This document shows positions 2,394 to 62,588 of a stretch of DNA of 64,000 bases, piece by piece. Under the pieces are notes generated by a model. That model saw nothing but the letters and a program-made list of their open reading frames with translations. It ran no database searches and was not told the DNA's origin. Within the stretch, counting starts at the first letter, position 1. Each line of letters begins with the position of its first letter. This stretch comes from Allokutzneria sp. A3M-2-11 16 (GTDB taxonomy: Bacteria > Actinomycetota > Actinomycetes > Mycobacteriales > Pseudonocardiaceae), in the NCBI RefSeq assembly GCF_024213555.1, contig NZ_JANAVO010000002.1:356269-420268 (forward strand). Reading direction: 5' to 3'. The position numbers and the translations under genes were made by a program.

Positions 2394-3523
2394 AGACGAT
2401 CACCGTGGTCGGCGCGTCCCTCGCCGGGCTCTCCGCCGCCCGCGAGCTGCGCGCCCAGGGTTTCGACGGCCGTCTGGTGATCGTGGGCGAGGAACCGCAC
2501 CAGCCCTACGACCGGCCGCCGCTGTCCAAGGACTTCCTGCTCGGCCGGGCCGAGGAGGCCGACCTCGCGCTCACCGACGCCGCCGAGCGGGCCGCGCTGG
2601 AGGCGGAGTGGATGCTCGGCGTGCACGCGAACGGGCTCGACACCGGCGCGGGTGAGGTGCTGCTCGACAACGGCACCGTGCGCACCGACGGGGTGGTGAT
2701 CGCGACCGGCGCGCGGCCGAGAATCCTCGCGGGGCAAGGAAACCTCAACGGCGTGCACACCCTCCGGACGATCGAGGACGCGTTGACCCTGCGCGCCGAC
2801 CTGGAGCGCGCGGAGCGTGTCGTGGTCGTCGGAGCGGGCTTCATCGGCGCGGAGGTCGCTTCGGCGTGCGCGACCCGCGGCCTCCAGGTCACCGTCGTCG
2901 AAGCTGCTCCAAAACCGTTGGCGGGCTTGGGAGACGAGATGGCGTCGGCGTGTGCCGCGCTGCACACCGACCACGGCGTGCGGCTGCTGTGCGGCACCGG
3001 CGTCGCCGGGCTCAGCGGTGATCATCGGGTCCGCGAGGTGCTGCTGAGAGACGGGAGCTCCATCGAGGCGGACGTGGTCGTCATCGGAGTCGGCGTGGTG
3101 CCGACGACCGAGTGGCTGGACGGATCGGGCCTCAGCCTGGTCAACGGTGTCGTCTGCGATCCCGGTTGTCGCACCGATCTGCCCGATGTGGTCGCGGTCG
3201 GCGATGTGGCGAACGTCGGCGGGCACCGCGTCGAGCACTGGACCAACGCCACGCGGCAACCTCGCGTCGCCGTGCGGAACCTGCTCGCCGGGGCGCTCGT
3301 GGAGTCGTGCGCGGACGTGCCGTACTTCTGGTCCGACCAGTACGGCGTGCGCATCCAGTTCGCCGGTCGCGTGCTGCCCTCCGACAAGGTCGAGGTCGTC
3401 GAGGGCAGTGTCGAGGACCGCGCGTTCGTGGCCGTGTGGCGCCGCGAGGCCGTCGAGGTCGGCGTGCTCGCGTTCAACAACACCAAGTCCTTCAACCGCC
3501 GCCGCCGCGCCCTCCCCCTCTAG
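2390..3523 (+). CDS. NAD(P)H-dependent ferredoxin reductase (FAD)
   Basis: 377 residues, matching the rhodocoxin/BphA4-type reductases. The order is an FAD-binding N-terminus (VVGASLAGLSAARELR), the substrate-side motif PYDRPPLSKDFL, an internal NAD(P)-binding motif VVVGAGFIGAEVASACA (about residue 145), the FAD motif AVGDVAN, and a C-terminal reductase domain. The start is the TTG at 2390, which overlaps the ferredoxin stop (TTGA). Upstream sequence in frame belongs to the ferredoxin in another register. It oxidises NAD(P)H and reduces the neighbouring Rieske ferredoxin. Confidence 0.88.
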   Translation: MKTITVVGASLAGLSAARELRAQGFDGRLVIVGEEPHQPYDRPPLSKDFLLGRAEEADLALTDAAERAALEAEWMLGVHANGLDTGAGEVLLDNGTVRTDGVVIATGARPRILAGQGNLNGVHTLRTIEDALTLRADLERAERVVVVGAGFIGAEVASACATRGLQVTVVEAAPKPLAGLGDEMASACAALHTDHGVRLLCGTGVAGLSGDHRVREVLLRDGSSIEADVVVIGVGVVPTTEWLDGSGLSLVNGVVCDPGCRTDLPDVVAVGDVANVGGHRVEHWTNATRQPRVAVRNLLAGALVESCADVPYFWSDQYGVRIQFAGRVLPSDKVEVVEGSVEDRAFVAVWRREAVEVGVLAFNNTKSFNRRRRALPL

Positions 3524-3611
3524 CTCGCCATCCCCTTCCCCCATCCCATAAACTCATCCCCATGCCCCTCCACCTCACCCCCTCCACGACGGCTGAGGTG
3601 GTCTAAACCAA

Positions 3612-3676
3612 TCCCGTTTCGTACTCATAACAGCCAATGGGAGCGCTCTTTTTCCCGCTTTGAGTACGAAACGGGA
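3612..3676. repeat. Palindromic element, family 1, copy 1
   Basis: Perfect 16-bp arms (3612-3627 and 3661-3676) surround a 33-nt centre holding GGGAGCGCTC. The element lies between the convergent ferredoxin reductase and antiporter pseudogene, so it probably works as a bidirectional terminator as well as being a dispersed repeat. Identity with copy 4 extends about 12 nt beyond the left arm (from about 3599), so the repeated unit is larger than the palindrome. Confidence 0.9.
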
Positions 3677-3724: not shown

Positions 3725-4890
3725 TCAGTGGAGTTGGGCGCTGCGGAGGTCGAGTCGGCGGAGCACGCGGTCTACGGCCTGGGGGTCGGCTCCGGGTTCG
3801 GTGCGGGCGCCGAGGATCTCGCGGCGGGCGGCGGCCAGGACCTCGGTCTGGATCTCGCGGAAGAGCTGCACGGTGCGGATGCGCAGCGCCTGCTCCTCCT
3901 CGTAGTTCTGCGGTTCCTTGTCCGCGTACAGCGCCGCGAGCAGCCCCTTCTGCCTGGACTGGATCTTGGCGACCATGTCCTCGGGCAGATCGCGGACCGC
4001 GTCGAGCTCCTTCAGCCGCCGCAGTCCGGCCTTGTACGCGCGCTTCGCCAACGCCTCGTCGGCGGCCTGCTCGACATCGGATTCGGCTTGCACACCAAGG
4101 GCTTTGACCAGCACAGGCAACGTGAGCCCGGGCAGCACCATCGTCACGACGATCACCGCGAACGCGATCAGCAGCAGCTCCGCGCGGGCGGGGAACTCCG
4201 GCGGGATCGCCAACGCCAGCGCGAGCGTCGCAAGCCCGCGCATCCCGCACCACGACAGCACGAGCCCTTCGCGCCAGTTCCGCGGAGCGCGCTCGGGATC
4301 GCCGGACCGCCCGATGAGCCACGCGCCCATCCCGAGCCACACCGTCCGCACCACGATCACCACTACACAGACCAAAGCCGCGCGGCCCGCGATCTCCATC
4401 AGCTGCCCCTCGTTGGCGGCGAGGACTTCGCGCAGCTCCAAGCCGATCAGCCCGAACGCCACGCCCGTCACGAGAAGCTCGACGACCTCCCAGAACGCGC
4501 CACCGCTGAGCCGACCATCCACATCGGACTCAGCGCGCCGAGCGCCACCGCCGCCGCGATCGTGATGCCGGGCACCAGGAGCCACGCGGTGACCGCGACC
4601 GCCGCCACGGTGATCAGCACGAGGACCAGCGCTAGCAACAGGATGCTGCGCCAGCGGACCTTGAACATCGACCACGAGGTCCGCTGCGCCGTGGCGTAGA
4701 GCAGCGGCGGCAGGAACAACGGCAGGATCAGCTCCGGCGGGACGACGAGCACCGGCAGGCCGGGCACCAGGGCCACGGCGATGCCCAGGAGTGTCACGAG
4801 AACCGGGTACGGCAGCCGGACACGCTCACCGACGCCGACGAGCAGCACCGTCGCCAGCATCAGCCCGATGATCACCATGAGTTCCGCCAC
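3725..4890 (-). pseudogene. Na+/H+ antiporter (CPA1/NhaP-like), internally deleted and frameshifted
   Basis: The N-terminal part (GTG at 4890 or ATG at 4878) encodes about 120 residues of transmembrane protein up to VALGALSP, then runs out of frame and stops at 4468. The C-terminal part, from about GRLSGGAFWEVVELLV to the end at 3725, is in another frame and is a typical antiporter C-terminus with ~5 membrane helices and a charged cytoplasmic tail. Intact relatives have roughly 520-540 residues. Here about 150 are missing between the halves, including the stretch after the SP(PD) motif that holds the transport-essential Asp residues. One deletion of around 0.5 kb with loss of frame near 4520-4530 explains this. 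The product should not transport. Confidence 0.82.
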
Positions 4891-9051: not shown

Positions 9052-10101
9052 GTGCGTGTACTCGTGACCGGCGGGGCCGGTTTCATCGGCTCCCACATCG
9101 CCGACGCCCTTGTGGCCCAAGGACATGAGCCCGTCCTGCTGGACGCGTTCCTTCCAGCTGCCCACACCGCGGCCGTTGTTCCCCCGTGGTGCCAGGGGTA
9201 TTCCCTTGAGCGCGGCGACATCCGCGACACCTCGCTGCTCGCCCGCCTCCTGTCCACAGTGGACGCGGTCTGTCATCAGGCGGCCATGGTGGGCCATGGC
9301 GTCGATCCGACCGATGCCCCGGATTACGCGCTGCACAACGATTTCGGCACTGCGGTCCTGCTCGCCGAGATGCATCGCGCCGGAGTGAAGCGCCTCGTTC
9401 TCGCATCGTCGATGGTGGTGTACGGCGAGGGCCGCTACCGCTGCCCCTCGCATGGCGTGGTGCGTCCGGGCCCGCGTCTTCTCTCGGACATCGAGGCGGG
9501 CGAGTTCGAGCCCCCGTGCCCGGTCTGCGGCGGCGCACTGCACTCCGAACTGATCGCCGAGGATGCTCCCCTGGACCCACGGAGTACTTATGCCGCAACG
9601 AAACTGGCCCAGGAGCACCTCGCGTCGGCGTGGGCTCGGCAAACCGGAGGTGGAGTGTGGGCGTTGCGTTACCACAACGTCTACGGTCCGCGAATGCCTC
9701 GGAACACCCCGTACGCCGGCGTGGCTTCGATGTTCCGCTCAGCCCTTGAGCGCGGCGAAGCCCCACGACTGATGGAGGACGGCGCGCAACTGCGGGACTT
9801 CGTCCACGTCACCGATGTGGCGCAGGCGAACGTCCTGGCCCTGGAAGCCGCTCCCCCGTCCGGCGCGCTAGAAGCGGTGAACGTGTGCTCCGGCGATCCG
9901 CACACCGTCGGCGACTTGGCTTTCGAACTGGCCCAAGCCCACAACGGCCCCACCCCCGTGGTCATCGGCGGCGCCCGCCCCGGCGATGTCCGGCACATCG
10001 TCGCCGACCCCGCCAAAGCCACTCGAATCCTCGGCTATCATCCGAACATGCCGTTCACCCAGGGCGTCCACGCATTCGCCACGTCCCCGCTCCGCCCCTG
10101 A
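9052..10101 (+). CDS. NAD-dependent nucleotide-sugar epimerase with zinc-ribbon insert
   Basis: 349 residues, extended short-chain dehydrogenase. The N-terminus TGGAGFIGSHIADAL binds NAD. An insert of about 55 residues after the catalytic serine carries CPSHG and CPVCGGAL, a likely zinc site, then STYAATKLAQEH holds the YxxxK active site. The insert resembles that of dTDP-L-rhamnose 4-epimerase-type proteins. GTG 9052 begins the Rossmann strand directly. By gene content this is the counterpart of galE3 in the Rv0536 region of M. tuberculosis. The sugar it handles cannot be told from sequence. Confidence 0.82.
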   Translation: MRVLVTGGAGFIGSHIADALVAQGHEPVLLDAFLPAAHTAAVVPPWCQGYSLERGDIRDTSLLARLLSTVDAVCHQAAMVGHGVDPTDAPDYALHNDFGTAVLLAEMHRAGVKRLVLASSMVVYGEGRYRCPSHGVVRPGPRLLSDIEAGEFEPPCPVCGGALHSELIAEDAPLDPRSTYAATKLAQEHLASAWARQTGGGVWALRYHNVYGPRMPRNTPYAGVASMFRSALERGEAPRLMEDGAQLRDFVHVTDVAQANVLALEAAPPSGALEAVNVCSGDPHTVGDLAFELAQAHNGPTPVVIGGARPGDVRHIVADPAKATRILGYHPNMPFTQGVHAFATSPLRP

Positions 10102-10124: not shown

Positions 10125-10187
10125 CCCGTTTCGTACTCATAGCCGTAAATTAGAGCGCTCTAAACCCCGTTAAGAGTACGAAACGGG
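10125..10187. repeat. Palindromic element, family 1, copy 2
   Basis: Left arm 10125-10138 (CCCGTTTCGTACTC) and right arm 10174-10187, with a centre holding TAGAGCGCTCTA, itself a palindrome. It lies between the convergent epimerase and sensor kinase genes. Confidence 0.9.
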
Positions 10188-10210: not shown

Positions 10211-11236
10211 CTAGTGGGGGAGGGGGATGCGGAGTTCGAAGCGGCAGCCCGGGCCGTGGTTGCGGGCGTTGATGCGGCCTTTGTGCGCCTCCACCAAGCC
10301 GCGCGCGATGGCCAGGCCCAAGCCCGCGCCGGCGGGTTGGTGGCCGTGGTCGGGAGTGCGGGCGGGGGTGCCGCGGAAAGCCACTTCGAAGACGCGGGAC
10401 AATTCGGCTTCGGGGATGCCGCCGCAGGCGTCGTCGACGGACAGCCACGCCTCGCGCTCGGTCTGCCCGGCGCGCACCACCACCGAGCCCGAAGGCGGTG
10501 TGTGGCGGATCGCGTTGGCCAGCAGGTTCCGCAGCACCCGCGACAGCTCCGGAGTGCTGGCGGAGACCACAGGCGATGCGCCGGGCTCCGTCACCAGGTG
10601 CACGCCCTTGCGTGAGGCGGCGGGGTGCGACGCGCTGACCGCCTCCTCGATCACCTCGCGGAGCGCGACCGGCGTCATGGTCAGCTTCAACGCCCCCGCG
10701 GTGATCTTGGACAGCTCGAACAGGTCCTCCACCATCGCGTTGAGCCGCACCGATTCCGCGCCGATGCGGAAGCCGTAGTCGCGGACCTCCACGGGCGCGG
10801 CGACGACCCCGTCGGAGAGCGCCTCGGCCATCGCCCGAATCCCGGCGAGCGGGGTGCGCAGGTCGTGGCTGATCCACGCGACCAGCTCGCGCCGGGACGC
10901 CTCGGCGGCGCGTTCACGGGCGCGGGCCTCGCGTTCCCACACGGTGCGCTTGGCGATGCCCCGGCCGAGCAGGACCGCCATCGGCACGGTCACCGCCGCG
11001 ACGAGCAGGCACACCAGCAGCGTGATCGTCAGGGTCGGGGTGAACATGAAGCCGCTGATCCCCACCGCCCCCGCGAAGGTCGCGACCAGCGGGATCAGGA
11101 TGAGCACGGTCATCGAGGTGGTCAGCGAGCGGTGGCGCAGCGCGTGCAGCAGCCACCCGCCGAGCAGGAACACCGGCAGCGACAACCCCACCGCGTACGG
11201 CGCGATGTGCGCGAGGTGGGCCAGGATCTCGTCCAC
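10211..11236 (-). CDS. Sensor histidine kinase (HisKA type), no adjacent response regulator
   Basis: 341 residues. There are two N-terminal pairs of hydrophobic segments (residues 13-90), a short linker, the HisKA box ELVAWISHDLRTPLAG with H124, and a HATPase_c domain with the N-box NLLANAIRHTP and G-box GAGLGLAIARGL. It is expressed downstream of a polytopic glycosyltransferase (3-nt gap), so the pair probably shares a promoter. No response regulator lies next to it, so its partner is unknown. Confidence 0.87.
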   Translation of the reverse strand: MDEILAHLAHIAPYAVGLSLPVFLLGGWLLHALRHRSLTTSMTVLILIPLVATFAGAVGISGFMFTPTLTITLLVCLLVAAVTVPMAVLLGRGIAKRTVWEREARARERAAEASRRELVAWISHDLRTPLAGIRAMAEALSDGVVAAPVEVRDYGFRIGAESVRLNAMVEDLFELSKITAGALKLTMTPVALREVIEEAVSASHPAASRKGVHLVTEPGASPVVSASTPELSRVLRNLLANAIRHTPPSGSVVVRAGQTEREAWLSVDDACGGIPEAELSRVFEVAFRGTPARTPDHGHQPAGAGLGLAIARGLVEAHKGRINARNHGPGCRFELRIPLPH

Positions 11237-27710: not shown

Positions 27711-28220
27711 TCCGTCCCGCCACCGCCCGGCTCCGCGCGCGATCACCGCAGGTCAGGGGGCATCTTTGTCCCACGGCATCCCAGCGCCCTGGTCGAGTCC
27801 CGCCCACGCCGGGCAGGCTTCCAGCCATGCGGACGCCTGAGGGGGCGGACGCGGTGACCGGGGGAAAGGTCACTCTGGGGGCAGTGCGGTGGGATCTCTC
27901 TAACCCGAAGAGGTCCCACCGTTGCCCTGCCCGGACCTTTCGCGCACGGCCGGTACAGCGGCCGGTCCGGGGAGTCATCGACCACGAGTCCGATCGCGGC
28001 GTCGGATCGGGAAACCCCTCTACTCGCGGGCGTTACCGTCCGGCCATGCTCCGCGCCGGTGGTTGGGGTGTCTTCAAGTACCCCCGACCCCGCCGTTGAT
28101 CACCAAAAACCGCCCCCAACCCGCTGCTCCTGCCCGGGGGGTTGGGGGCGGTTTTCGGTGATCGTTTGGGGGGTTCGTTGTACTTGAAGACGCCCTGACC
28201 ACCGTGGGGGCGGTTCGTGG
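27711..28220. other. 510-bp convergent intergenic region with long palindrome
   Basis: No convincing gene in any frame. Holds the family 2 palindrome at 28065-28196 and, at 27889-27920, a smaller inverted pair (GGTGGGA / TCCCACC). The rest shows nothing I can interpret. Confidence 0.6.
28065..28196. repeat. Palindromic element, family 2, copy 1
   Basis: Outer arms GTGTCTTCAAGTAC (to 28081) and GTACTTGAAGACGC (from about 28181) enclose a second, inner pair of ~25-bp arms (about 28098-28122 and 28139-28163, cores ACCGCCCCCAACCC / GGGTTGGGGGCGGT). The same outer arms recur at 62187-62317. It lies between convergent genes. Confidence 0.85.
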
Positions 28221-34210: not shown

Positions 34211-36430
34211 ATGAGAGCGCGTGTGGCGTTGGCCCTCGCGACGGCGGGGCTGATGCTGACATCGGTGATGACGGCCTCAGCGCAAGCGGTCGTGTACACG
34301 GACAAGAACGCGTCGGTGCGGGACCGCGTGAGCGACCTGATGGCGCGGATGTCGTTGGCGGACAAGCTCGGGCAGATGGTGCAGACCGAGCGCAAGGCCG
34401 TGCAGCCCGCCGATCTGACCACGCACCGGATCGGCTCGCTGCTCTCCGGCGGCGGCTCGGCCCCCACGCCGAACACGGCGACGAGCTGGGCCGACATGTA
34501 CGACAACTTCCAGCGAGCGGCGCTGGCCACGCCGCTGCGCATCCCGATGATCTACGGCGTGGACGCGGTGCACGGGCACAACAACGTGCACGGCGCGACG
34601 ATCTTCCCGCACAACATCGGCCTCGGCGCCGCCCGCGATCCGGAGCTGGTGCAGCGCATCGGTCGCGCCACCGCCGAGGAGGTCTCCGGCACCGGCATCG
34701 ACTGGAACTTCGCGCCGTGCCTGTGCGTGGCCCGCAACGATCGCTGGGGCCGCACGTACGAGTCCTTCGGCGAGGAAGCCGAGCTGGCCACCGCGATGAC
34801 CACGCTGGTGACCGGCTTGCAGGGCGGAGCGCTGAACGCGCCCGGGTCGGTGCTGGCGACGGCGAAGCACTGGGTCGGCGACGGTGGCACCACCGGCGGC
34901 AAGGACCAGGGCGACACCGAGGTCTCCGAGGCGGAGCTGCGCTCGCGGCACATCACGCCGTTCCGCGAGGCGGTCCGGCGCGGCGTCGGCTCGGTGATGA
35001 TCTCCTACAGCAGCTGGAACGGCGTGAAGCTGCACGCGCACCGCTACCTGGTGACCGATGTGCTCAAGGCGGAGCTGGGCTTCTCCGGCATCGTGATCTC
35101 CGACTGGGACGCCATCGACAAGATTGACGGTCAGCCGGGGTTCACGCCGGAGGAGGTCCGCGCCTCGGTCAACGCGGGCATCGACATGATCATGGTGTCG
35201 GCGGAGTGGCGGCGGTTCCTCGACCTGCTGCGCGCCGAGGTCGAGTCGGGCCGCGTGCCGATGTCGCGGGTGGACGACGCCAACCGCCGCATCCTGACCA
35301 AGAAGTTCGAGCTCGGCCTGTTCGAGAAGCCGTTCACCGATCGCTCGTACACCTCGACCGTCGGCAGCCCGGAACACCGTTCGCTGGCAAGGGAAGCCGT
35401 GCGCAAGTCGCAGGTGCTGCTCAAGAACCGCAACGGCGTGCTCCCGCTGCCCAAGACCGCGGACAAGCTCTTCGTCGCGGGCAAGAGCGCGTCGGACATC
35501 GGCAACCAGTCCGGTGGCTGGACGATCGAGTGGCAGGGCAAGAGCGGCCCGATCACCCCGGGAACCACGGTCCTGCAAGGGATTCAGCAAGCCGTGCACG
35601 GAACGGCGGTGACGTACAACCGCAACGGCGACGGCATCAACGACACCTACAAGGCTGCCATCGCGGTGGTCGGCGAGACGCCGTACGCGGAGTACAACGG
35701 CGACCGGCCGGACGGGCTCGGCCTGGACGCGGAGGACTTGGCGACGCTCGCGAAGCTGAAGGCGTCCGGTGTGCCCGTGGTCGTGGTGCTGGTGTCGGGG
35801 CGGCCCATGGACATCGCGGCCCAGCTGCCCGACTGGGACGCGTTGGTCGCGGCGTGGCTCCCCGGCACCGAAGGCGCGGGCGTCGCGGACGTGCTCTTCG
35901 GTGATCACCAGGTGTCCGGGAAGCTGCCGGTGAGCTGGATGCGTTCGGTGTCGCAGCAGCCGATCAACAACGGTGACGGCAAGCCCGCGTTGTTCGGCTA
36001 CGGCCACGGCGAGTCCTTCCCCGCGGCGCAGGACGCGTACCAGATGATCGGCGCGGCCTACTACGACGAGCAACGCGGCACCGGAGTGCAGCGGTGCACC
36101 GACAGTGGCTGCGGCCAGAACGTCGGGTGGATCGCGAACGGCGACCACCTGGGCTTCGCCGATGTGGACTTCGGCGCCGCGTCAGCCGCCCGGGTGACGA
36201 CGCGGTTCGCTTCGGGGGCCGCGGCCGGTGGCTCGCTGGAGTACCGCTTGGATTCGCCGACCGGTCCCGTGGTGGCGACTCAGGCGATCACTCCGACCGG
36301 TGGCTGGCAGACCTGGGCCAGCGCGACCACCGCGGTCACCGGCGCGACGGGCAAGCACCGCCTCCACGTGGTGGCCCGCGGCGGAAGCGGCGACTTCACC
36401 AACCTGAACTGGTTCCAATTCTCCCGCTAG
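34211..36430 (+). CDS. Secreted family 3 glycoside hydrolase with C-terminal carbohydrate-binding domain
   Basis: 739 residues. Signal peptide to about residue 28 (ASAQA). The GH3 TIM-barrel carries MIYGVDAVHGHNNVHGATIFPHN, ATAKHWVGDGGT and the nucleophile region GIVISDWDAIDKI. The second GH3 domain (VLLKNRNGVLPLPK, VVGETPYAEYNGDRP) follows, then a CBM6-like beta-sandwich of about 120 residues ending FTNLNWFQFSR. It probably removes glucose from beta-1,3 or beta-1,4 glucans outside the cell. A cellobiose-repressor-like site precedes it and GAGGAGGAG lies before the ATG. Confidence 0.93.
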   Translation: MRARVALALATAGLMLTSVMTASAQAVVYTDKNASVRDRVSDLMARMSLADKLGQMVQTERKAVQPADLTTHRIGSLLSGGGSAPTPNTATSWADMYDNFQRAALATPLRIPMIYGVDAVHGHNNVHGATIFPHNIGLGAARDPELVQRIGRATAEEVSGTGIDWNFAPCLCVARNDRWGRTYESFGEEAELATAMTTLVTGLQGGALNAPGSVLATAKHWVGDGGTTGGKDQGDTEVSEAELRSRHITPFREAVRRGVGSVMISYSSWNGVKLHAHRYLVTDVLKAELGFSGIVISDWDAIDKIDGQPGFTPEEVRASVNAGIDMIMVSAEWRRFLDLLRAEVESGRVPMSRVDDANRRILTKKFELGLFEKPFTDRSYTSTVGSPEHRSLAREAVRKSQVLLKNRNGVLPLPKTADKLFVAGKSASDIGNQSGGWTIEWQGKSGPITPGTTVLQGIQQAVHGTAVTYNRNGDGINDTYKAAIAVVGETPYAEYNGDRPDGLGLDAEDLATLAKLKASGVPVVVVLVSGRPMDIAAQLPDWDALVAAWLPGTEGAGVADVLFGDHQVSGKLPVSWMRSVSQQPINNGDGKPALFGYGHGESFPAAQDAYQMIGAAYYDEQRGTGVQRCTDSGCGQNVGWIANGDHLGFADVDFGAASAARVTTRFASGAAAGGSLEYRLDSPTGPVVATQAITPTGGWQTWASATTAVTGATGKHRLHVVARGGSGDFTNLNWFQFSR

Positions 36431-36439
36431 GCCGCTTTT

Positions 36440-36490
36440 CCCGTTTCGTACTCATAGCGGGCTTGCGGACCGCTATGAGTACGAAACGGG
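36440..36490. repeat. Palindromic element, family 1, copy 3
   Basis: The tightest copy: perfect 21-bp arms (36440-36460 and 36470-36490) with a 9-nt loop. It begins 9 nt after the GH3 stop and ends 20 nt before the end of the convergent secreted-protein gene. Confidence 0.95.
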
Positions 36491-36510: not shown

Positions 36511-36894
36511 CTACGATCCGACTCGGTTGCCGATGAAGACCGAGGGGCCGCAGTCGTCGTTGTTCGCGCGGCAGATGCTCACGTGGGCGTACCACCAGAT
36601 CGAGGCCGTCTCCGCGTGCAGCGCGATGGTTCCCGGTCCGCACTGCGTCTCGGAGCGGGGGCTTTCGAGCCAGAACTCGTGCTTCATCTTGACGTAGAAG
36701 CACCCTGGCTGCGTCACCACGAGATTGCCCTTGATCCTGACGCCGCCGGGAAGCCCGCGGATGTAGCTCCACTCGGCGGCGGTGACCGACGTTCCGTGGT
36801 GCGGTGCCGGGGTGAACGGCTTGGCGGCCGAGGCGACGCCAGCACCGAGGAACATCGACACGGCCGCGAGGCCCACGAGAAGTGTCTTTCGCAT
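36511..36894 (-). CDS. Secreted protein of unknown function
   Basis: 127 residues with a clear signal peptide (MRKTLLVGLAAVSMFLGAGV, cleavage near ASA-AK). The mature domain is strand-rich and contains four cysteines (QPGCFYV, ETQCGPG, SICRANN, DDCGPS), enough for two disulfides, and aromatic runs such as SIWWYAH. No family recognised. It sits downstream of the RlpA-like gene on the same strand. Confidence 0.65.
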   Translation of the reverse strand: MRKTLLVGLAAVSMFLGAGVASAAKPFTPAPHHGTSVTAAEWSYIRGLPGGVRIKGNLVVTQPGCFYVKMKHEFWLESPRSETQCGPGTIALHAETASIWWYAHVSICRANNDDCGPSVFIGNRVGS

Positions 36895-51354: not shown

Positions 51355-52469
51355 CCGACCAGCCAGACCTCCCCGACCTCGCCGCCCGCTCGCTCGGCGG
51401 TTCGGTGATCGCGGCCAACGACGAGTTCTTCGCGGAGAAGGAGAACCTGATCAAGTCGGAGCCGCCGACCTTCCGGCCGCACACCTTCACCCCCAAGGGG
51501 CAGGAGTACGACGGCTGGGAGACCCGGCGGCGGCGCGGAGAACCCGGCTCCGACTGGGTGATCGTGCGGCTCGGGGCGCCCGGTGTGATCCGGTCCGTGG
51601 TGGTGGACACCGCGTTCTTCGTCGGCAACTTCCCGGAGAGCTGCACGGTCGAGGCCACGGCGATCGAGGGCTACCCGGCGCCTGGGGAGCTGGACAGGCA
51701 CACCTGGGTCGAGCTGGTGCCGCGCAGTCCGCTCCAGGGCGGCACCGCGAACACGTTCCAGGTGTCGGACCCTCAGCGCTTCACCCACGTGCGGCTGACC
51801 ATCCACCCGGACGGCGGCGTCGCGCGGTTGCGCGTGCTCGGCGAACCGCTTCCCGACCCGCGCGAGCTGGTCGACATGCCGCTGGACCTGGTGGCGCTGC
51901 TCAACGGCGGCCGGACCACGGCGTGCAGCGACAGCTTCTTCTCCCCGCCCAACAACATGTTGCAGCCCGGCGAGTCCAAGTTCATGAGCGACGGCTGGGA
52001 AACCGCGCGGCGGCGGGGCGAGGGCAACGACTGGGCGGTGTTGCGCCTGGCCGGGGCGGCCGTGCCGAAGGTGGCCGAACTGTCCACATTGCACTACAAG
52101 GGCAATCCCCCGCACGCGATCACCTTGTCGGGAAGCGAGGACGGCATCTCGTGGTTCCCGTTGCTGGAGCGGACCGAGGTTCAACCGGACACCCGGCATC
52201 GCTTCCGGCTCACCGGAAACGCCCCCGTGACGCACGTCCGGCTGGACATCCACCCCGATGGCGGGGTGGCGCGGTTCCGGTTGTGGGGCAAGCTGACCGA
52301 GGACGCCGGGACCGGTCTGGCGTTGAGCTGGTTCAACCTGCTGCCCGCCGAACACGCGGTCGCGGTGCTGACCGGCGACTGTGGACTGACGGAGGCGGCG
52401 GCCGCCGAGGTGGTCGCGGCCCGCCCCGTCGCGGAGCTACCGGAGGAACTGGCGTTGATCCTGCGATGA
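51351..52469 (+). CDS. Allantoicase with extra C-terminal segment
   Basis: 372 residues. Two tandem allantoicase repeats are visible, each with a [18 protein letters not shown] or [17 protein letters not shown] motif and a [17 protein letters not shown] close. It splits allantoate to ureidoglycolate and urea. A segment of about 50 residues after the second repeat ([20 protein letters not shown] through [13 protein letters not shown]) weakly resembles the N-terminus of OHCU decarboxylase and may be a fusion remnant. GTG 51351 overlaps the allantoinase stop. Confidence 0.93.
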
Positions 52470-53035
52470 ACCAGGCGGCCGGGATCGTGTTGGCCGCGGG
52501 CGCGGGCGTGCGGTACGGCGGGCCCAAGGCGCTCGTCGAGCTGCACGGCGAGCTGCTCGTGGAGCGCGCGGTGCGGACGCTGCGCGAGGCCGGCGTCGAC
52601 CCGGTGGTCGTGGTGGTCGGGGCGCGGGGCGACGAGGTCCGCGCCCGCGCTTCGCTCGACGGCGCGCTGCTCGTGCACAACCCGGAGTGGGCCAGCGGTA
52701 TGGGCTCCTCGCTGCGCGCCGGGCTGATGGGCCTGATCTCCTGCCGGGCGGCCGCGGTGCTCGTGCTCCCGGTGGACATGCCGGGCGTCACCCCCGCCGC
52801 CGTCCGCCGGGTGACCGAGCTGTCCACGCCCGACGTGCTAGCCGCGGCGTCCTTCGACGGCGTCCGGGGCCACCCCGTCCTCCTCGGCCGAGCCCACTGG
52901 GCCGCTGTGGCCACCTCCGCGACCGGCGACCAGGGCGCCCGCACCTACCTGCGCGAACACCCGCCCGTGCTCGTGGCCTGCGACGACGTCGCCTCCGGCG
53001 CCGATGTCGACCGCCCCGAGGACCTGCCCACCTAA
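52466..53035 (+). CDS. MobA-like NTP transferase, molybdenum cofactor cytidylyltransferase type
   Basis: 189 residues. AAGIVLAAGAGVRYGGPKALVEL is the nucleotide-binding signature, and VLVLPVDMPGVTP and GVRGHPVLLGRAHW match MocA-type enzymes that add CMP to molybdopterin. Xanthine dehydrogenases of this three-subunit type often use the cytosine-dinucleotide form, which explains the gene's place at the end of the operon. It overlaps allantoicase by 4 nt. A family 1 palindrome follows. Confidence 0.85.
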   Translation: MNQAAGIVLAAGAGVRYGGPKALVELHGELLVERAVRTLREAGVDPVVVVVGARGDEVRARASLDGALLVHNPEWASGMGSSLRAGLMGLISCRAAAVLVLPVDMPGVTPAAVRRVTELSTPDVLAAASFDGVRGHPVLLGRAHWAAVATSATGDQGARTYLREHPPVLVACDDVASGADVDRPEDLPT

Positions 53036-53050: not shown

Positions 53051-53115
53051 TCCCGTTTCGTACTCTTACCGGCCTTTTGGAGCGCGCCAATTCCCGCTAT
53101 GAGTACGAAACGGGA
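53051..53115. repeat. Palindromic element, family 1, copy 4
   Basis: Perfect 15-bp arms (53051-53065 and 53101-53115) around a 35-nt centre. Identity with copy 1, in inverted orientation, continues outward to about 53129 (GGATTGGTTTGGACCAC). It lies at the convergent ends of the purine operon and a DUF3817 gene. Confidence 0.92.
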
Positions 53116-53175
53116 TTGGTTTGGACCACGCCGGCCCACGATGAGGGGCACGCGGGTGTGGCGCATGGACACATC

Positions 53176-53508
53176 TTAGAGCTTCTCGCCCGCGTTGACG
53201 CGGCGCACGACCTGCTTCTCGGCGTAGAAGGAGACGAAGGGGATCGTGCCCGCGATGAGCACCAGCAGCGTGCCCTTGGCCGACCACTTGCAGCGCTGCG
53301 CGAGGTCGAAGGCGGCCACCAGGTAGATCATGTAGAGGAAGCCGTGCGCGGGCGCGACGATCGCCGACGGCGCGGTGATCTCGGTGGTCAGCCGCAGCAC
53401 CATCGCCGCCAGCAGCGCCAGCAGCGCGAAACCGACGATGTACGCCATCACCCGGTACCGCACGAGCGCCTTGGCGTGGGTCGGCTGCGTTTCCTGCTGC
53501 TGCGTCAT
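53176..53508 (-). CDS. DUF3817 integral membrane protein
   Basis: 110 residues. Three membrane segments (VMAYIVGFALLALLAAMVLR, then the region of VAPAHGFLYMIYLVAAFDLA, then GTLLVLIAGTIPFVSFYAE) match the DUF3817 family, small actinobacterial membrane proteins of unknown role. The gene overlaps its upstream partner by 4 nt (ATGA). Confidence 0.82.
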   Translation of the reverse strand: MTQQQETQPTHAKALVRYRVMAYIVGFALLALLAAMVLRLTTEITAPSAIVAPAHGFLYMIYLVAAFDLAQRCKWSAKGTLLVLIAGTIPFVSFYAEKQVVRRVNAGEKL

Positions 53509-62186: not shown

Positions 62187-62317
62187 GGGCGGTCTTCAAG
62201 TACCACGCACCCCCGCCCCACCCACCTATAACGACAGCTAACCCCCGTGCCTCGGCTGGGGGTTAGCTGCCGTTAGAGACCGTTTCAGGTGGGGTCTGCC
62301 GTACTTGAAGACGCCCC
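62187..62317. repeat. Palindromic element, family 2, copy 2
   Basis: Outer arms GGTCTTCAAGTAC (to 62203) and GTACTTGAAGACGCCCC (62301-62317) match those at 28065-28196, but the inner hairpin has a different sequence. So the outer arms are conserved and the inside varies. Confidence 0.85.
62229..62275. terminator. Strong hairpin after the pyrimidine operon
   Basis: 18-bp arms (62229-62246 and 62258-62275) with one mismatch and an 11-nt loop, inside the family 2 element and 56 nt past the last operon gene. It has no T-run. Confidence 0.7.
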
Positions 62318-62331
62318 TTCTCGGCGGGCTT

Positions 62332-62389
62332 ACGTACCCAATGCGGCATTCGTTACGTCTGACGTAACCGATGCCACATTGGGTACGTC
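62332..62389. repeat. Imperfect palindrome
   Basis: Arms of about 28 nt (core ACGTACCCAATG.GGCAT / ATGCC.CATTGGGTACGT) with three mismatches meet almost without a loop at TACGTCTGACGTA. Confidence 0.75.
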
Positions 62390-62537: not shown

Positions 62538-62588
62538 CCCTGAACGGGTCGTTCGGGGCGTTCAGTGCCCTCAACGACCCGTTCAGGG
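62538..62588. repeat. Perfect 16-bp-arm palindrome
   Basis: CCCTGAACGGGTCGTT (62538-62553) is inverted at 62573-62588, with a 19-nt loop. It lies just upstream of the MFS gene. Confidence 0.8.

Follow-up and report, generated by a model that had tools for sequence, protein, structure and literature searches.

Here, I describe a short palindrome that is dispersed in about 260 paired copies over the 8.81-Mb, 43-contig genome of the soil actinobacterium Allokutzneria sp. A3M-2-11 16, that sits for the most part between converging genes, that fills gaps which are empty in a relative, that keeps its arms nearly invariant, and that has a sister family in another genus. With a probability of about one half, I regard it as a MITE/REP-like mobile palindrome which works as a two-sided 3'-end hairpin and whose arms are read by a trans-acting factor. 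I infer that it acts at gene ends and that a factor recognises it, along the following lines: copies would insert beside stop codons, converging gene pairs being preferred; the hairpin would serve the neighbouring genes as a 3'-end element, either a terminator or a 3' stabiliser; and the factor, be it a transposase or a DNA- or RNA-binding protein, would read the word GTTTCGT[A/C]CTC as an inverted pair, which is the reason proposed for the constancy of the 14-bp arms.

Four palindromes in the window and their spread over the genome

In what follows the own genome is G000, C11 is one of its contigs, and the window is the whole 64,000-nt stretch of DNA that was analysed. The window contains exactly eight sites of the 14-mer CCCGTTTCGTACTC, counted in both orientations, and these form four exact facing pairs (Table 1), in agreement with the four palindromes of a preliminary description. 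This description also rightly had no further copies in 64 kb, the only other site with at most three mismatches to the 14-mer being at 10232, and arms of differing length, namely 16 bp perfect, 21 bp perfect and 22 bp at 91% among the three copies listed. Of the 10 convergent gaps in the window, 8 measure 60 bp or more; each of the four copies is inside such a gap. Gene calls come from a purpose-written dicodon script and are uncurated; 7 of the 8 genes flanking the copies have a Pfam family match. Copy 1 scores 128 bits with the covariance model R1, of which it is itself a part. The Rfam covariance models gave 0 matches in the window at gathering score, and a plasmid search with copy 3 and its flanks returned no match. 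Two more strong inverted repeats (62332-62388 and 62538-62588) share one intergenic stretch of the window.

Table 1. Positions of the palindromes and of the features around them in the window, and gaps that are empty in G034
Feature	Position	Strand	Remarks
Pyridine nucleotide-disulphide oxidoreductase gene	2405..3523	+	left of copy 1; own gene call, Pfam
Promoter-like box TAAACT and leaderless 14-codon frame	3549..3606	+	box 3549-3554, ATG 3562-3564, TAA 3604-3606
Copy 1	3613..3675	.	63-bp palindrome, arms CCCGTTTCGTACTC / GAGTACGAAACGGG
Na/H exchanger domain gene	3725..4522	-	right of copy 1; own gene call, Pfam
NAD-dependent epimerase gene	9064..10101	+	left of copy 2; own gene call, Pfam
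Copy 2	10125..10187	.	63-bp palindrome, without promoter/frame side
Histidine kinase gene	10211..11236	-	right of copy 2; own gene call, Pfam
F2 palindrome	28070-28191		second family
Glycosyl hydrolase family 3 gene with CBM6	34211..36430	+	left of copy 3; own gene call, Pfam
Copy 3	36440..36490	.	51-bp palindrome, arms 21 bp, perfect
Gene without Pfam match	36511..36876	-	right of copy 3; own gene call
MobA-like NTP transferase gene	52466..53035	+	left of copy 4; own gene call, Pfam
Copy 4	53052..53114	.	63-bp palindrome
Promoter-like box TAAGAT and ATG	53115..53178	-	box 53178-53173, ATG 53166-53164, 52 nt before copy 4
DUF3817 gene	53176..53508	-	right of copy 4; own gene call, Pfam
F2 palindrome	62192-62312		second family
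Gaps empty or nearly empty in G034	C11:87189, 287424, 479544, 500274, 546601, 589911, 698184, 750383, 761195; window copy 4

Genome-wide, the full pattern with 14-bp arms occurs 213 times and its reversed control 0 times, and a pair pattern of the 11-bp cores finds 258 copies, or 260 if the gap may be wider and one letter is left free. The 11-mer GAGTACGAAAC is present 262 times on one strand and 268 times on the other, 516 of these 530 words being paired and 14 single. Identical interiors recur at many sites. Own copies with identical 40-bp flanks (e.g. C11:750383 and 761195) were merged, leaving 59 for detailed study, of which 54 have a palindrome of 63 bp, other lengths being 62, 61 and 51.

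The claim that every copy stands between convergent genes holds in the window (4/4) and not in the genome: the 29 copies of C11:1-1200000 comprise 20 convergent, 8 tandem, 1 divergent and 0 coding ones, with overlaps of called gene ends in 2 of the 20 and 1 of the 8. Convergent gaps make up 25.7 of the 150.8 kb of intergenic DNA there (17%), and the binomial P of the excess is ~9e-10, or 8e-8 when only the 18 clean convergent copies are counted. Likewise, 28 further copies on other contigs include 17 convergent, 9 tandem and 1 divergent, with 1 at an edge. The preference for convergent gaps is strong and not absolute, about 30% of copies being elsewhere; with neither an even spread nor an absence of further copies, the original idea survives its genome-wide check.

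The stops that flank the copies (n=42) read CTGA (15), CTAG (14), CTAA (9) or otherwise (4), and a C precedes the stop in 38/42 vs 228/372 in element-free convergent pairs. Incidentally, CTAG has 404 sites in C11:1-1200000 vs ~3350 expected from base composition, being about eight-fold rarer, and gene stops hold 126 of the 404.

Insertion, unit borders and arm constancy

Thirty-four copies (30 in C11 and 4 in the window) were tried against G034, which I take to be A. albata, and 21 could be mapped. The orthologous gap is empty or nearly so in 10 of these 21, the flanking alignments being no more than 43 bp apart (Table 1), and therefore copies have inserted, at sites empty in relatives as is the case for MITEs. 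Opposite copy 4 only 4 bp separate the alignments, and at the site of C11:287424 the sequence of G034 is AAGGGCTAGACG. The added DNA is bordered by CTAG on both sides at C11:287424, 500274 and 546601; other sites differ. Elsewhere the gaps of window copies 1 and 2 are taken in G034 by other hairpins, and that of copy 3 by one which shares the inner stem and differs in the outer; the counterpart of C11:515147 is a diverged version of the palindrome, and that of C11:246577 a neighbouring hairpin present in both genomes. The palindrome is absent from the 54- and 51-bp gaps corresponding to C11:377932 and 663754; C11:495075 and 495277 are within ~1 kb of DNA added relative to G034, and C11:72463 and 586121 stand opposite unrelated DNA, 475 and 515 bp long.

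Among the matches listed, the named ones all belong to Allokutzneria sp. NRRL B-24872, the own genome possibly having been omitted, and G068 is taken as this strain because stretches are identical. Four gaps are occupied both in the own genome and in NRRL B-24872 (window copy 3, C11:246577, 515147 and 1183423), therefore part of the copy set is old; in the pair C2:95115 the copies of the two genomes are in neighbouring, not the same, gaps. As for the borders of the unit, those of type A (e.g. C11:495075, 546601 and 976925) have TIR-like inverted ends GTGTCCTGCAAG at the neighbouring stop codons, a word that the own genome has in exact form at 12 places. Ends resembling GTGTCCTGCAAG also flank a copy of another palindrome family (F2, see below) at C11:1130578.

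The arms are best judged from two unbiased scans of 1.2 Mb, one tolerant of mismatches and one with the covariance model; the 59 own copies, those of G068 and the cross-species pairs were picked by exact 11-bp cores, which by itself accounts for part of the identity of their arms. The mismatch-tolerant scan found perfect arms in 27 copies, one mismatch per 28 positions in 3 and five in 1 (C11:167781), so that one mismatch over 28 positions is the maximum in 30 of 31 copies, and there were no copies with 2-4 arm mismatches. With default filters, the covariance model reported the same 31 places as the top 31 of the mismatch scan; a separate place with six arm mismatches, C11:1055324, went without a report from it. 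Along the same line, the four gaps filled in both species show 1 arm difference in 112 positions, or 1 in 140 over five pairs once the neighbouring-gap pair C2:95115 (L032/L113) is added, bearing in mind the selection by cores. In the 8 copies of type C, identity is 99% in the arms (where the exact 11-bp cores of the selection pattern fix most positions), 66% in the interior and 46% in the promoter/frame region. Pairing within the interior of own copies is no better than in shuffled halves. The constant letters of the arms are not needed by the hairpin alone. Between type A and type C units the interior was also observed to have opposite orientations with respect to the promoter side, as though it had been turned over between its arms, the identity being 0.67 when one is flipped vs 0.53.

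The position of the palindrome might also be that of a purely selfish MITE, reflecting target preference and tolerance, with insertion at CTAG-like stop-codon sites and no host benefit, a reading I hold to be possible, if somewhat unlikely. It would draw on the rarity of CTAG and its concentration at gene stops, on the C before the flanking stops, on the TIR-like words beside stop codons in type A units, and on the identical interiors at many sites. Yet decayed copies, to be expected of a family that is neutral and old, are almost absent from the 1.2 Mb, and four gaps are filled in two species, while clean duplications are few and GTGTCCTGCAAG has so few exact sites.

Relatives and the promoter-like side

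The family is unevenly represented among the three genomes of the genus: copies defined by 11-bp cores number 258 in the own genome, 52 in G068 and 1 in G034, and the pattern GTTTCGTNCTC...GAGNACGAAAC gives 260, 53 and 1. Besides its one exact copy, G034 has a few diverged ones among the best 15 model candidates scored per genome, hence the genus can nearly do without the palindrome. In G068, pairs account for 104 of the 141 core occurrences and the arms look less tidy, for which contig ends may account in part; 25 of its copies divide into 11 convergent, 8 tandem, 5 at a contig edge (unclassed) and 1 called coding.

Among 390 genomes of the family, GTTTCGTNCTC...GAGNACGAAAC occurs in 21, which belong to 2 of 46 genera. 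The second genus, g16, presumably Amycolatopsis, carries a sister family in 18 of its 80 genomes, with 1 to 62 copies each and the core GTTTCGTCCTC in all places listed. A draw of 397 genomes from the whole order included 318 from other families, none of which matched (80 and 318 are my own counts from tables). The g16 copies were first met with a covariance model of the Allokutzneria unit, the best E value being 1.3e-7 in G015; model R1 was scored on the best 15 candidates per genome and its counts are lower bounds, and a single match to it in G120 (E 0.009) does not seem to be related. The 26 distinct g16 elements, not independent of each other as one locus may appear in several species (e.g. 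L258, L269 and L271), are 58 or 59 bp long; 18 are convergent, 8 tandem and none divergent or coding, and 25 of the 26 have a called gene boundary no more than 12 bp away, on one side or on both. In the 59-mers (n=12), inner stem position 13 is paired in 92% vs 49% in shuffles, with compensating changes; in the 58-mers (n=14), position 21 is paired in 7% vs 38%. Within 100 kb of G156 there are five copies, three of them exact, one with 2 mismatches and one with a broken arm. A plasmid search with a g16 locus matched only the uvrB gene.

Two other palindromes were noticed. The gap of G034 that matches window copy 1 (in L165-L168) is filled by one with GACTCATTC-like arms, and 14-mers of this kind recur six times in 320 kb of G034, which may thus have a repeated palindrome of its own. 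In the own genome, the sole match of the search pattern among the three genus members, a second family, F2, measures 108-152 bp between constant arms GTCTTCAAGTAC / GTACTTGAAGAC, and its 28 copies in C11:1-1200000 are 16 convergent, 11 tandem and 1 divergent.

It is quite improbable, in my view, that the palindrome is a binding site at convergent ends for a chromosome-organising or other DNA-binding protein, concerned with the handling of supercoils, the hairpin being incidental. Invariant arms around a variable interior would fit such a site, as would a core and an overall spacing nearly alike in two genera; but a duplex site does not need the covariation seen at some g16 inner stem positions, the length is not fixed even in the own genome (62, 61 and 51 bp besides 63), and G034 retains the stem at copy 3 with different outer letters on both sides.

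One side of the unit resembles a promoter. A TANNNT box with a start codon 51-54 nt before the palindrome is found in 29 of the 59 own copies, on one side and never on both, and in 25 of these 29 the frame has 14-15 codons and stops 5-6 nt before the palindrome. In 1.2 Mb, 12 of the 13 TAAACT-N5-7-ATG motifs sit 51-53 nt before a palindrome. The 14-codon frame of copy 1 stops 6 nt ahead of it; that of copy 4 has no in-frame stop up to the end of the palindrome. The layout might define a family of tiny genes, in which a promoter, a leaderless 15-codon frame and the hairpin make up a small transcript, a peptide or sRNA whose end is the palindrome. The near-exclusive spacing of the TAAACT motifs, the regular stops and the recurrence of the layout in a second species, G068, are what such genes would leave. 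Nevertheless, I consider them very improbable, for about half of the own copies lack the layout, G068 has box and start in 11 of 25 copies and keeps the stop 5 nt before the palindrome in 6 of these 11, and in the g16 copies looked at neither box nor frame was found at the distance seen in the own genome. Variation by codon position 1, 2 and 3 is 0.29, 0.37 and 0.26, hence no selection on the peptide is seen and a selected peptide is unsupported.

A bolder extension of the preferred reading, with the mobile palindrome as a recognised 3'-end hairpin, is a "portable gene end" system common to two genera within one family, in which a dedicated factor would recognise the paired GTTTCGTNCTC, plant or maintain the hairpin between overlapping convergent stop codons, and keep hundreds of arm pairs identical while loops drift, the word changing in concert between genera. 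I regard this as unlikely.

Hairpins at gene ends and comparison with known systems

The predicted RNA hairpins have energies of -28.9 to -39.8 kcal/mol (5 sequences, both strands) and, as in an intrinsic terminator, a stable predicted hairpin stands beside the stop codon. In a folding test of gaps of 50-250 bp, scored by their best 50-nt energy, 86 convergent gaps comprise 16 with the main family, 13 with F2 and 57 with neither. These 57 have a median energy of -31.2 and a z below -3 in 39%, vs -20.3 and 5% for 129 divergent gaps and -21.5 and 14% for 237 tandem ones. Repeat-free convergent gaps thus often hold strong hairpins, and the palindrome therefore occupies a place often taken by a unique hairpin. 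Gaps bearing the palindrome are unremarkable in this test (median z -0.3), whose folding window is shorter than the palindrome. The suggestion of a bidirectional terminator keeps its plausibility in so far as the position would suit a two-sided 3'-end hairpin, to judge by the strong predicted hairpins of family-free convergent gaps.

The 10 nt after the stem contain on average 2.55 T in own copies vs 1.39 further out, a modest rise, and a low 1.57 in g16; TTTT lies within 9 nt of the stem on 10 of 118 sides, and a terminator consensus scan around copy 3 found none. In Streptomyces terminators, according to part of PMC12207403, 3-4 of the first 10 nt past the hairpin are U, the own copies being somewhat under this figure, and the argument that a palindrome with no T-run is not an ordinary intrinsic terminator is a weak one.

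A mobile repeat seems to become the standard 3' end for many genes, which makes it testable how convergent transcription is ended in high-GC actinobacteria; an arm-pair probe could fish for the factor, and naturally empty and filled sites provide matched controls. Among the papers listed by a literature search that included the arm letters themselves, there was no description of the palindrome.

The neisserial DNA uptake sequence occurs singly, also within genes, and its inverted pairs act as terminators. It is a short word with dialects (PMC3630211, in part), and the palindrome resembles it in its constant short word, its genus-specific variants and its inverted pairs at gene ends. As an identity it was rejected, given that 516 of 530 words are paired (14 single) and that 0 of the 29 copies in 1.2 Mb are coding.

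REP/BIME and GTAG- or CGTC-tagged palindromes are described, in part of PMC3733652, as high-copy, extragenic and mostly located between convergent and unidirectional genes; the words Actinobacteria, Streptomyces and actinomycet do not occur in the main text of this paper. The Allokutzneria palindrome is likewise high-copy, extragenic and mostly in convergent or unidirectional gaps, and in its dispersal and its insertion at sites empty in G034 the notion of a REP-like mobile palindrome stands. Strict membership does not: at 63 bp it exceeds the 20-40 bp given there for REP/BIME, and its unit is larger and asymmetric, with a promoter-like box and frame; by eye, no constant GTAG or CGTC tag was found in the flanks of the 59 own copies; and the Y1_Tnp domain of the REP-associated transposase (RAYT, PF01797), positive in 5 of 14 controls, is absent from all 3 genus genomes, so an element mobilised by RAYT was rejected.

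With the U-poor terminators of Streptomyces, as far as part of PMC12207403 describes them, the palindrome shares a long stable hairpin downstream of a gene with few U after it; those are general hairpins, whereas its stem letters are common to hundreds of sites. Finally, like prokaryotic MITEs such as Correia elements (part of PMC10969869), it is short, lacks a transposase gene, and has inverted repeats, a promoter-like box and insertions at new sites; unlike them, as they appear in the same source, it carries its invariant arms inside the added DNA, beside stop codons, with a target-site duplication that is clear in few cases.
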